Assembly: GCF_011762125.1 (NCBI RefSeq)
Contig: NZ_JAASQN010000001.1
Location: 1,116,001-1,180,000 of the forward strand
Direction: 5' to 3'
DNA: 64,000 bases
Source of the DNA: Sphingopyxis panaciterrae
Lineage (GTDB): Bacteria > Pseudomonadota > Alphaproteobacteria > Sphingomonadales > Sphingomonadaceae
Shown: positions 24,271 through 28,664 of the stretch, one piece after another
Position numbering within the stretch: the stretch's first letter is position 1
Layout: every line of letters begins with the position of its first letter
Program-made: the position numbers and the translations under genes
The notes under the pieces: generated by a model
What the model was told of the DNA's origin: nothing
What the model saw: only the letters and a program-made list of their open reading frames with translations
Database searches by the model: none

Positions 24271-25572
24271 CTAAAGCACATATTTGCTGAGGTCGGTGTC
24301 GCCGACGATGTCGGCAAGCTGACGGTCGACATAGGCGGCGTCGATCGCCAGCGTCGTGCCGCCCATGTCCTCGGCGCCGAAGCTGACTTCCTCAACCAGC
24401 CGCTCCATGATCGTCTGGAGACGGCGGGCGCCGATATTCTCGACCTTTTCATTCACATCGGCTGCCAGCTTCGCGACGCGCGCGATCGCGTCGTCGGTGA
24501 AGGAGAGGGTGACGCCTTCGGTCTGGATCAGCGCCGCATATTGTTCGGGCAGCCCGGCCTTGGTTTCGGTCAGGATACGCACGAAATCGGCCTCGCTGAG
24601 CGCGCCGAGTTCGACGCGGATCGGCAGGCGGCCCTGCAGTTCGGGGAGTAGGTCGCTCGGCTTCGCGACATGGAAGGCGCCCGACGCGATGAAGAGGATA
24701 TGGTCGGTCTTCATCGGACCATATTTGGTCGCAACCGTCGTGCCTTCGATCAGCGGCAGCAGGTCGCGCTGGACGCCCTCGCGGCTCACCGATCCGCCGC
24801 GGACGTCGCTGACGGCAATTTTATCGATCTCGTCAAGGAACACGATGCCGTTCGCTTCGGCATCGGCGAGCGCGACGCGCGCGACGTCGTCCTGATCGAG
24901 GCGCTTGTCCTGCTCTTCCTCGATCAGCCGCGTCGCGGCTTCGATGACCTTCAGCTTGCGGCGCTTCTTGGGCATGCCGCCCATCGCCTTGCCGAGCATG
25001 TCCGACAGGTTGATCATGCTCATCTGCCCGGGCTGGCCGGGCAGTTCGAAGGGCATGCCTGCGGCGTCGGCAACCTCGATCTCGACTTCGCTATCGTCGA
25101 GATGGCCTTCGCGGATGCGCTGGCGGAAGCTCTGGCGCGTCGCCTCGCTGGCACCCTTGCCGGTCAGCGCGTCGAGCAGCCGCTCCATCGCGGCCTCTTC
25201 GGCGGCGGCGCGCACCGCATCGCGGCGGCGGTCCTTTTCGAGCCGCACCGCTTCCTCGACGAGATCGCGGGCGATCTGTTCGACGTCGCGCCCGACATAC
25301 CCGACCTCGGTGAACTTGGTCGCCTCGACCTTGATGAAGGGCGCGTCGGCGAGCTTGGCCAGGCGGCGCGAAATCTCGGTCTTGCCGCAGCCCGTGGGGC
25401 CGATCATCAGGATATTCTTCGGGCTCACCTCGTCGCGCAGGTCGGCCGACAGCTGCTGACGGCGCCAGCGGTTACGGAGCGCGACGGCGACCGCGCGCTT
25501 GGCGGCGTCCTGGCCGATGATATGCGTATCCAATGCGGCGACGATCGCCTTCGGGGTCAGGTCTTTGTTCAT
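24271..25572 (-). CDS. hslU: ATP-dependent protease ATPase subunit HslU
   Basis: 433-residue AAA+ unfoldase of the HslUV (ClpYQ) protease. Walker [10 protein letters not shown] (about 59-67), pore/GYVGRD loop, insertion I-domain (about 110-230), Walker B VFLDEID, and the C-terminal tail ending KYVL that docks into HslV. It is separated from hslV by an exported flavoprotein gene, whereas the pair is normally adjacent. Confidence 0.97.
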
Positions 25573-25636: not shown

Positions 25637-26722
25637 TCAAGCCGGGCAGCGGAACCCCGCGAACAGCCGCTGGTGTGCCGCGACGATCCGCGCGATGCGC
25701 TCGGGCTGGGGTTCGGCCACCCACTCGTTGCGTTCGTAGGAGCCGCCGATGACGATGCCGTCGGCGCGCGGGAACATATAGCCGGCGTCGCCGGTGAAGG
25801 CGTAACGCACTTCGGGTTGCGGGATCAGGATCGCCAGCTGGCCGCGGATCGGCATGAGCTCCTGATCGCCGAACAGGTCGCGCGCGCCGAGCCCGGTACA
25901 GTTGAAGACGAGCGTTTCGGGGAGCGCGGCGATCTCGGCCGGCGCGGCGAAGCTTTTGACCGCGATGCGGCCGCCGGCGCTTTCGATGTCGCGCATCATC
26001 TGGCGCAGATAGCGGCCGGTTTCGACGTAGAGCGTGTCATATTGCCAGAGATTTTCGACGGGAAAGGGATGCTCGCCGGGGCGCAGCGCGTGCGCAGCGG
26101 GCGGAAAGGTCGGAAGCTTGGGCTCCTCCGGCGTCCCTTCGGAGTAGGTGGTGAGCCAGCGGACACCATAATCGTCGCCGACCATGATCTGGAACCGCCG
26201 CCAGCTGTAGTCGAGCGCGGCGGTGAACTGGCGCCGCCATTCGGGGGTGACGGCGTCGGGCTTGAACAGGCCGAAGGGATGGAACTGGCCGCCGGCGATG
26301 TTCGAGGTCGTGTCGGGCGGCAGCGCCTTGGCATAGACGGTGACCGGGAACCCCGCTTCCTGGACGAGGCGCGCGGTCGACAGGCCGACCACCCCGGCGC
26401 CGATCACCGCGACGGGGCCGCTGTGGCCGGCGAGCCCCATATCGGCGGCGAGCTTCGATGTGCCCCAGCTCAGGGTGATGCCCGAGCCGCCATGGCCGTA
26501 GTTATGGACGAGCCGCTTCGTACCCAGCGCTTCGGCGCGGACGACGAAGCCGCTCGCGCGATAGGGGCGCAGGCCCGCCATGGTGCGGATGACGCGGTCG
26601 GGCGCCGCCTTGACCGGCATCAGGCACGATGCCGGGGTGCGGGCGGTCGTCGTGGCGCAGCCCGGCAGGGCGAGCGCGGCGGAGGCGGCAACGAAATGGC
26701 GGCGGGGGAGGGCGTGAATCAC
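25637..26722 (-). CDS. Tat-exported D-amino-acid-oxidase-like flavoprotein, apparently circularly permuted
   Basis: 361 residues. N-terminus RRHFVAASAALALPGC combines a twin-arginine motif with a lipobox Cys, implying folded export and lipid anchoring. Residues about 47-97 contain GLRPYR and VHNYGHGGSGITLSWG, the block that closes normal D-amino acid oxidases. Only then comes the FAD Rossmann motif VIGAGVVGLSTA (about 105), followed by TTSNIAGGQ, VFNCTGLGARDL, RGQLAIL and a C-terminal YMFP...GGSYERNEW, where the normal protein would continue into GLRP. So the canonical last segment is first. Residues equivalent to the substrate-binding Tyr and Arg are kept. GTG start; 17 bases after hslV. Substrate unknown. 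Confidence 0.82.
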   Translation of the reverse strand: MIHALPRRHFVAASAALALPGCATTTARTPASCLMPVKAAPDRVIRTMAGLRPYRASGFVVRAEALGTKRLVHNYGHGGSGITLSWGTSKLAADMGLAGHSGPVAVIGAGVVGLSTARLVQEAGFPVTVYAKALPPDTTSNIAGGQFHPFGLFKPDAVTPEWRRQFTAALDYSWRRFQIMVGDDYGVRWLTTYSEGTPEEPKLPTFPPAAHALRPGEHPFPVENLWQYDTLYVETGRYLRQMMRDIESAGGRIAVKSFAAPAEIAALPETLVFNCTGLGARDLFGDQELMPIRGQLAILIPQPEVRYAFTGDAGYMFPRADGIVIGGSYERNEWVAEPQPERIARIVAAHQRLFAGFRCPA

Positions 26723-26739
26723 CCCGCGACCATATAGGC

Positions 26740-27306
26740 TTAGCTGTTGATGTCGATGGTTTCCGAGGTGAACTGGTCGTTGGTGTAGACGCAGATATCG
26801 GCGGCGACCTGCATCGCCTTGCGCGTCAGCACTTCGGGGTCCTTTTCATAGCCGGCGAGCGCGGTCGCGGCGGCGAGGGCATAGTTGCCGCCCGACCCGA
26901 TCGCGGCGATGCCGCCCTTCGGTTCGAGCACGTCGCCGTTGCCGGTGATGACGAGCGTGACCTCCTTGTCGGCGACGATCATCATCGCTTCGAGATTGCG
27001 CAGATATTTGTCGGTGCGCCAGTCCTTCGCCAGTTCGACCGCGGCGCGGAGCAACTGGCCGTTGTGCCGCTCGAGCTTGGCTTCCAGACGTTCGAACAGG
27101 GTGAAGGCGTCGGCGGTCGCACCCGCAAAGCCGCCGATCACGCTGCCATCGTGGAGGCGGCGGACCTTGCGGGCGTTGGGCTTCATCACCGTCTGGCCCA
27201 TCGACACCTGGCCGTCGCCGATGATGACGACTTTCCCGGGTGCGCGGGCGGAAAGAATGGTGGTTCCGTGCCAGGGCGCGGCACGATGCGCATTTTGGTC
27301 GCTCAT
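26740..27306 (-). CDS. hslV: ATP-dependent protease peptidase subunit HslV
   Basis: 188-residue proteasome-related peptidase. After a 14-residue propeptide the mature protein begins TTILSARAP, with Thr as nucleophile. [20 protein letters not shown] and [16 protein letters not shown] are family signatures. ATG 27306 gives the proper propeptide; upstream frame to 27423 is antisense or spacer. It lies between wecC (65 bases upstream) and the DAAO-like gene. Confidence 0.96.
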
Positions 27307-27371: not shown

Positions 27372-28664
27372 TCACGCCATGGCGCGCTGCCCTGGCGCCG
27401 CCGGCCATCCCTGATCGGGCCACAGGCCGCGACTGTCATAGACGATCTTGCCGCTGCGTTCCTCGAGCGGGACCGATTTGAACACGTCATGGTCGACGAG
27501 CACGATCAGCACATCGCAATCGGACAGCGCATCGTCGAGTTCGACCAGTTCGGCGCCGCTGCCGGCGAATTCGGCGGGCAGCGCCTTTGCATAAGGCTCG
27601 ACGATCCGGATGCGCGGGCCGAATTGGTGCGCAAGGGCGGCTGCGACTTCGAGCGCCGGGCTCTCGCGGAAATCGTCGATATTGGGTTTGAAGGCGAGGC
27701 CGAGGACGCCGACGCGGGCGTCCCGATGGCTCGCGACGAGCGCGGCGGTCGCCGCGATGACATGCGCCGTCTTGGCAAGGTTCACTTCGCGCGCGGTGCG
27801 GATCAGGCGGCTTTCGTCGGGCGCGCCATGGACGAGGAACCAGGGATCGACCGCGATGCAATGGCCGCCGACGCCGGGGCCGGGCTGGAGGATGTTGACG
27901 CGCGGGTGGCGGTTGGCGAGGCGGATGACGTCCCAGACGTCGACGCCCATCTTGTCGGCGATCATCGACAATTCATTGGCAAAGGCGATGTTGACGTCGC
28001 GATAGCTGTTTTCGACGAGCTTCACCATTTCGGCGGCGCGCGCCGTCGTGGTGACGCAGGCACCGCGCACGAACTGGCGGTAGAAGGTCATGGCGCGCCG
28101 CGCGCAGCGCGGGGTGATGCCGCCGATGCAGCGGTCGTTGTCGACCAGTTCGACGAGGATGCGGCCGGGCAGCACGCGCTCGGGGCAATAGGCGATGAAG
28201 ATGTCGGGGGTGCCGGCGCAGCGGCCCGGGACCTTGAGGTCGGGGCGTTCGGCGGCGAGCAGTTCGGCGACCTTTTCGGTGGTGCCGACGGGGGAGGTCG
28301 ATTCGAGGATGACGAGATTGCCGGGTTCGAGCACCTTGGCGATCTTGCGTGCAGCGTCGAGGACATAGGTGATGTCGGGGCGATGATCCTCGTCGTGCGG
28401 GGTTGGCACCGCGATGACGAAGGCGTCGGCGGCGACGGTCTCGGTCGAGGCGACGAGCGCGCCGCGCGACACGACGCCCTGAACGAGGCCGTCGAGATCG
28501 ACTTCCTCGATATGGACGCGGCCGCTGTTGACCGTTTCGACGACATGCGCGCTGACGTCGATGCCGGTGACCTTGCAACCCGAGCGCGCGATCAGGGCAG
28601 CGGTCGGCAGGCCGATATAGCCGAGGCCGACGACAGTGACTTTTTGTTCGATATCAAGCGCCAC
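27372..28664 (-). CDS. wecC: UDP-N-acetyl-D-mannosamine dehydrogenase
   Basis: 430-residue NAD-dependent nucleotide-sugar dehydrogenase oxidising UDP-ManNAc to UDP-ManNAcA. Rossmann motif [11 protein letters not shown] near residue 10, [11 protein letters not shown], and the catalytic Cys in [13 protein letters not shown]. The C-terminal domain has [16 protein letters not shown]. The start is placed at GTG 28664, giving an 11-base overlap with the wecB end and a GGAG 10 bases upstream; no in-frame ATG is near. Confidence 0.92.

Follow-up and report, generated by a model that had tools for sequence, protein, structure and literature searches.

The window, a 64,000-nucleotide stretch of the Sphingopyxis panaciterrae genome (contig NZ_JAASQN010000001.1, positions 1,116,001 to 1,180,000), carries a gene whose protein product is a natural circular permutant of the D-amino acid oxidase (DAAO) and D-aspartate oxidase (DASPO) family. 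Two segments of the protein are exchanged relative to these enzymes, and the old C-terminus is joined to the old N-terminus. Our preferred reading, to which we assign a probability of roughly 0.85, is that the permutant arose by head-to-tail duplication, that its active site is restored on refolding, and that the protein is exported by the Tat pathway, anchored through Cys22, and most likely oxidizes D-amino acids. DAAO is a textbook flavoenzyme for which many structures have been solved. We found no published account of a permuted DAAO in the open-licence literature, and the string 'permut' occurs 0 times in the available main text of two articles on the distribution and transfer of DAAO-type enzymes (PMC4699246 and PMC5169069). 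The features of the gene and its immediate surroundings are as follows.

25637 to 26722, minus strand: permuted DAAO-family gene, 361 amino acids, GTG start, stop codon included; relatives are known
26660 to 26722, minus strand: predicted Tat signal peptide, residues 1-21, with the arginine pair at 7-8 (from the sequence and the family consensus)
26657 to 26659, minus strand: Cys22, predicted to be lipidated and to be the first residue of the mature protein (conserved Cys in relatives)
26420 to 26617, minus strand: block at the N-terminus, residues 36-101, the counterpart of the C-terminal end in normal DAAOs (Pfam DAO 301-353)
26558 to 26575, minus strand: GLRPYR, residues 50-55; Arg52 corresponds to Arg308 of ReDAAO, substrate carboxylate (PDB alignment)
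26480 to 26506, minus strand: HNYGHGGSG, residues 73-81; Gly79 corresponds to Gly335 of ReDAAO, substrate amino group (PDB alignment)
25640 to 26419, minus strand: body, residues 102-361, the counterpart of the larger N-terminal portion in normal DAAOs (Pfam DAO 2-299; 6rkf chain 13-264)
26384 to 26407, minus strand: VIGAGVVG, residues 106-113, FAD GxGxxG motif (from the sequence)
25778 to 25780, minus strand: Tyr315, corresponding to Tyr244 of ReDAAO, substrate carboxylate (alignment of the rotated protein to PDB chains)
26740 to 27306, minus strand: hslV, protease subunit, next gene upstream, named from its sequence; ATG at 27306, with the listed frame extending to a GTG at 27423
24271 to 25572, minus strand: hslU, ATPase subunit, next gene downstream, named from its sequence

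In normal family members, the GxGxxG motif lies near the N-terminus and the GxRPxR...HNYGHGG block lies near the C-terminus. The preliminary description of this gene claimed that the order is reversed, as is evident from the positions of GLRPYR and HNYGHGGSG ahead of VIGAGVVG. The chain also stops where the normal C-terminal block would be expected, as had been stated there: a GGSYERNEW strand (residues 326-334) is followed by one helix, and the protein ends with ...QRLFAGFRCPA, without a second block. The same reversal is present in all 110 loci that we compared (L001 to L110, of which L001 is the window's own; 108 sequences are distinct). Therefore, we regard these proteins as a permuted variant and not as ordinary DAAO/DASPO members.

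Profile searches reveal that the two exchanged segments together cover nearly the whole of the Pfam DAO profile (353 positions). The intact window protein scores 129.4 bits in two stretches, with residues 104-356 matching profile positions 2-299. When the segments are searched separately, residues 102-361 match the same profile positions with 95.9 bits, and the 66 residues from 36 to 101 match positions 301-353 with 39.4 bits. The E-value of 6.9e-10 for such a short piece by itself indicates that the match of the block is not due to chance. A search with the N-terminal part moved behind the body, which the preliminary description had suggested, yields a single stretch covering profile positions 2-353 (139.2 bits) as opposed to the two stretches obtained without rotation.

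The same pattern emerges from comparisons with proteins of known structure. When phmmer is run against the PDB, DAAO and DASPO chains are matched in two swapped stretches with E-values down to 5.7e-27, and both stretches pass in 16 of the 17 distinct DAAO/DASPO sequences. With 6rkf, for example, query residues 102-347 align to chain residues 13-264 and query residues 45-93 align to chain residues 280-331. The rotated window protein aligns to DAAO/DASPO chains in one continuous stretch, and the score for 6rkf is 102.7 bits versus 97.7 bits without rotation.

We also conducted a rotation scan in which the mature chain was turned in steps of five residues and compared with a model of 11 normal-order proteins. 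The best single stretch for the window protein is reached at residues 97-102 (193.6 bits versus 137.5 bits unrotated), whereas the sum over stretches is nearly flat (192.1 unrotated to 194.4) because both pieces match in any case. Among 17 other permuted proteins, 10 peak like the window protein. The remaining seven (L024, L049, L065, L111, L113, L114 and L116) show no real gain for a single stretch, which we tentatively attribute to long tails or additional N-terminal residues around the junction. Five normal-order controls, which are themselves part of the model, peak at most 15 residues from no rotation.

Relatives of the window protein are widespread: of 592 candidate stretches from GTDB genomes, at least 563 encode one. 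The best 80 of these (L002 to L081), many of which derive from metagenome-assembled genomes (MAGs), share 37-82% identity with the window protein over the best segment. They come from Sphingomonadales, other Alpha- and Gammaproteobacteria, Acidobacteriota, Gemmatimonadota, Bacteroidota, Chloroflexota and others; permuted forms from Bacteroidota, Chloroflexota and Actinomycetota are represented by one or two loci each. A survey of 296 Sphingomonadales genomes produced matches in 73 at E ≤ 1e-3. In 51 of these, including the window's genome, the match reaches E ≤ 1e-20 and follows the query collinearly starting no later than residue 31, and therefore the block comes first; the other 22 are weak matches to the FAD domain. 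Across 299 Pseudomonadota genomes, 15 (again counting the window's) match at E ≤ 1e-8, and the block is first in all 15. The window's own 4.84 Mb genome holds a single match at E ≤ 1e-3, which is the gene itself.

Each protein from the 110 loci carries one HNYGH-type motif, located 56-111 residues behind a start codon that was picked by rule for the relatives, and alignment of the 110 loci places the FAD glycines after this motif in every case. No second HNYGH-type motif was found behind the FAD motif in any of these loci. The preliminary description had named a second C-terminal block, brought to light by correcting a frameshift, as the finding that would overturn a permutation, and this case is excluded by the single motif copy at the front of all 110 proteins. 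More generally, an assembly error, a frameshift or a wrong gene call could make a normal DAAO look permuted, and one related Mesorhizobium plasmid gene (L115) is in fact split in two frames. We give this explanation virtually no weight, since the same order recurs in all 110 loci, which were taken from many different assemblies and span several phyla, the window gene's frame is open throughout 25637-26722, and relatives extend down to about 37-40% identity.

Several relatives merit separate mention. The Mesorhizobium onobrychidis plasmid copy (L115:2926-3989) is a broken or split permuted gene; its annotation lists two genes for FAD-dependent oxidoreductases, and the upstream one ends within the GxGxxG region. 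'FAD-dependent oxidoreductase' is also the name given to the annotated plasmid relatives. Five proteins (L058, L065, L068, L071 and L080) carry a C-terminal tail that closes with a common motif resembling (L/V)ExFF(G/D)x(E/Q)S. A tandem pair of permuted paralogues is present in a MAG labelled Thalassovita (L076:2528-4978); in the tree it clusters with a sequence from Bacteroidota, which may point to a binning error.

To place the permuted proteins relative to normal-order homologues, we built a larger tree from 59 permuted sequences, brought into the common order by rotation, and 11 normal-order sequences. Of the 110 loci, 49 are included, together with 10 further permuted proteins, nine normal-order loci and two PDB chains; L115 was omitted because it is split, L122, L123 and L131 as copies, L146 as a near copy, and L145 because it has no motif. 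A single branch parts permuted from normal order with an SH-aLRT value of 99. In a more careful tree with 44 of the 70 rows (33 permuted versus 11 normal), support for this branch is 100/99, and a single change of order is found in 100% of 200 bootstrap trees. Because no root was inferred, the trees show one change but not its direction. The presence of the normal order in eukaryotes, in actinobacteria and in the wider DAO superfamily argues that the permutation is the derived state. The rearranged protein found in several phyla seems to stem from one rearrangement. The preliminary description's central claim of a circular permutation is supported by these results together: complementary profile matches, rotation, the order in 110 of 110 loci, one tree branch and a confident predicted fold.

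The length of the junction between the two segments bears on how the rearrangement came about. From His73 to Gly108 there are 35 residues in 96 of 110 loci (range 33-43). In eight normal-order proteins, the C-terminal tail plus the N-terminal lead, counted from the nearest Met, amounts to 32, 33, 34, 37, 38, 38, 55 and 65 residues; the two long sums become 43 and 47 with annotated starts. The permuted junction of 35 residues compared with the 32-38 residues of six of the eight proteins is as predicted by a head-to-tail duplication. A join without a linker explains the first six sums well and the last two less well. Under our preferred reading, the process probably began with a head-to-tail duplication of an ancestral DAAO gene. 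In the first copy, a new start would then have arisen before the last segment of the fold, which consists of the substrate-arginine strand and the HNYGHGG strand-turn-helix that binds FAD; in the second copy, a new stop would have arisen ahead of this same segment. What had been the C-terminus would thereby lead directly into the former N-terminus, with the new ends placed in the loop before the GxRPxR strand.

It is also conceivable that the block was fused from another gene, or that its motifs converged, and that the body lost its own C-terminal segment without any duplication. In favor of this origin, the block forms one contiguous unit that can be aligned on its own, but it appears improbable given that block and body are complementary on the Pfam DAO profile (301-353 and 2-299) and that the junction has the length expected for a head-to-tail join. 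If the fused block came from another DAAO copy, these data cannot distinguish this event from duplication and trimming.

Normal-order homologues in bacteria were found on plasmids of Streptomyces, Streptantibioticus, Nocardia, Tsukamurella, Mycobacterium and Vibrio (L117-L120, L141-L144 and L146) and at one alphaproteobacterial locus (L121). A normal-order query run against the window's genome matches only the permuted gene, in two pieces. With one actinobacterial query, 299 Pseudomonadota genomes gave no full-length close match to a normal-order DAAO; weaker matches include one in G680 (4-277 of 305, 30% identity, E 2e-7) and several partial ones at 116-303 or 118-303. The same approach applied to 289 Alphaproteobacteria genomes, again with one actinobacterial query, detected one clear normal-order DAAO (G530, for which the order was checked) along with weak matches, three of which (L126, L127 and L135) had no HNYGH-type motif in frames of at least 150 residues. 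The query also matches 37 Burkholderia and 10 Vibrio plasmid records, with order checked in two Vibrio copies only, and these matches count against the permuted form having replaced the normal one in all Pseudomonadota. We lean somewhat towards a broader proposal, in which one ancient head-to-tail duplication gave rise to a lipid-anchored, periplasmic D-amino-acid flavoenzyme that is now present in at least six phyla (Pseudomonadota, Acidobacteriota, Gemmatimonadota, Bacteroidota, Chloroflexota and Actinomycetota) and that has replaced the normal form in much of Alphaproteobacteria.

The window protein begins with a twin arginine at residues 7-8 and a lipobox-like LPGC that includes Cys22. An alignment of 73 rows, made from the window protein and 72 of its 80 best relatives (L007, L010, L011, L012, L016, L017, L035 and L081 were omitted as near copies or for size), yields the consensus start MxxRRxxL...LxGCA. 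Using a loose motif and starts chosen by rule, we found an RR within the first 30 residues in 99 of 110 loci, a lipobox-like motif within the first 60 in 100 of 110, and both in 93 of 110, compared with 8.7 expected from shuffled N-termini. A cysteine is present at position 22 in 103 of 110 loci (66 of 73 alignment rows), and TatC is encoded in the window's genome. By its motifs, including a hydrophobic stretch, the protein resembles Tat-exported lipoproteins. As a sequence pattern, these motifs support the predicted Tat export and lipidation that the preliminary description had proposed from the signal. With such a signal, the protein would cross the inner membrane already folded and loaded with FAD, and lipidation of Cys22 would anchor it there. 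When the tree is rooted on the normal-order rows, the deepest permuted branch is composed of sequences from Bradyrhizobium, Rhizobium and Nonomuraea (L112-L114) that by eye lack a signal sequence. Because this branch seems to be without signals, the permutation may be older than export.

AlphaFold2, when supplied with the mature 340 residues and the 73-row alignment, returned one confident fold (pLDDT 93.1, pTM 0.92) in which only eight residues (1-8 of the mature chain) fall below 50. The block is modeled as strands 23-34, 39-45 and 48-54 and helix 57-76 in mature-chain numbering. The best Foldseek match in the PDB is human DASPO (E 3.7e-15, sequential TM 0.65, 2.8 Å over 271 columns); human DAAO is also among the best matches, and glycine oxidases fall far behind (8e-8 to 1e-6). 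A sequential aligner is unable to place the block, and therefore a TM value near 0.65 is expected. This value is predicted by permutation, but it is no proof. From the high pTM and the conserved motifs, we infer that the block would fold back to pack beside the FAD and so rebuild the active site.

In ReDAAO, Arg308, Tyr244 and Gly335 are described as interacting with the substrate carboxylate and amino group (PMC6697736). Arg52, Tyr315 and Gly79 of the window protein align to these three residues, with PDB chain numbering offset by 20. The counterparts of Arg52 and Tyr315 in human DAAO are Arg283 and Tyr228. Arg52 and Gly79 are each invariant in 110 of 110 loci, and Tyr315 is a tyrosine in 101 of 110 (64 of 73 alignment rows). 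Thus, the earlier claim that all alignable substrate and FAD positions are kept holds for the window protein at the three positions tested but not for the family, and some of the nine members without this tyrosine may not be D-amino-acid oxidases. By eye, a permuted protein from a Kozakia baliensis plasmid (L116:2896-4556) lacks the substrate tyrosine as well. The window protein would most likely oxidize D-amino acids to imino acids, which would be hydrolyzed to 2-oxo acids and ammonia; the putative electron acceptor would be O2, which would yield H2O2, or else a respiratory carrier.

A protein with this fold might instead act on other amines, such as glycine, sarcosine-like secondary amines, opines or an amine derived from peptidoglycan. 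Tyr315 is not universal, a family-specific Tyr307 is found in 72 of 73 rows, and the best NCBIfam match is glycine oxidase ThiO, albeit with 65.2 bits versus a cut-off of 250.8. Nevertheless, we consider this alternative less likely than not because PDB matches to DAAO and DASPO are well ahead of those to glycine oxidases and because the window protein retains the arginine, tyrosine and glycine of the DAAO site.

On one strand, hslV, the permuted gene and hslU follow one another in 50 of 110 loci, counting that of the window, and in a 51st (L006) the contig ends before hslU. All 51 hslV-linked loci fall among the 54 from Sphingomonadales, and the other three (L014, L089 and L090) have no hslUV within the flank examined. 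In 17 of 17 sphingomonad-family genomes examined, out of 223 without a match to the permuted gene, hslV adjoins hslU with 7-122 bases between matches. We read this position as kept by descent, and any functional link to hslUV would be hypothetical. Outside the hslUV setting the neighbors vary, and no generally conserved partner gene was found outside sphingomonads, either among the clustered neighbors of the 110 loci or among the same-strand neighbors of the 59 loci without hslUV. This survey used crude gene calling based on the longest frames, and some listed frames are noise from the opposite strand. On Bradyrhizobium and Rhizobium plasmids (L112:1366-5693 and L113:1482-5708), permuted genes that appear to lack a signal lie between genes for an FAD-binding oxidoreductase and a thiamine-pyrophosphate enzyme, possibly forming a small pathway cluster.

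These neighborhoods also bear on the electron acceptor. Instead of reducing O2, the permuted protein could act as a periplasmic dehydrogenase that hands its electrons to a cytochrome c or a quinone. Bacterial D-amino-acid enzymes of the DadA type are dehydrogenases, the Kozakia gene is followed after five bases by a gene annotated as cytochrome c, CxxCH frames lie within two called genes in seven of the 59 loci without hslUV, and a common CxxCH-motif protein is encoded nearby in 11 mostly gammaproteobacterial loci. However, the seven loci include probable non-cytochromes by eye (DnaJ-like in L043, cryptochrome-like in L038), the Kozakia relative is divergent and by eye lacks the substrate tyrosine, the hslVU setting of the window has no cytochrome-type partner, and the nearest solved sequences and folds are oxidases. 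We consider this possibility less likely than not.

A conserved natural permutant, with both orders extant in bacteria, provides a natural experiment on how well the FAD fold tolerates new ends, and the family bears on the relationship between permutation, Tat export and lipid anchoring. It also points to the possibility that sphingomonads and soil bacteria have an extracytoplasmic route, hidden under the generic annotation of the family, for D-amino acids that stem from the environment or from peptidoglycan turnover. Permuted, exported DAAOs could be of use as surface-displayed or sensor enzymes.

Among known systems, glycine oxidase ThiO, the C-terminal domain of MnmC and DadA, all of the DAO superfamily, have the FAD-binding Rossmann fold in common with the window protein and give partial NCBIfam matches. 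Membership in these families was rejected because the scores are far below the curated cut-offs, and to our knowledge all three have the normal order and no HNYGHGG block. The normal-order bacterial DAAO homologues share motifs with the permuted proteins but differ in that their HNYGH-type motif is near the C-terminus in 10 of 10, and they lie on the opposite side of the 100/99 branch (L146, a near copy of L144, was omitted). The closest likeness is to DAAO and DASPO (EC 1.4.3.3 and 1.4.3.1; PDB 6rkf, 1kif, 1c0k and 7ct4), with which the window protein shares a predicted common fold, a match to nearly the full Pfam DAO profile, the GxGxxG, GxRPxR and HNYGHGG...WG motifs, and the substrate-binding arginine, tyrosine and glycine. 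The normal eukaryotic enzymes are peroxisomal. Unlike DAAO and DASPO, the window protein places the last segment first and begins with a Tat/lipobox-like signal.
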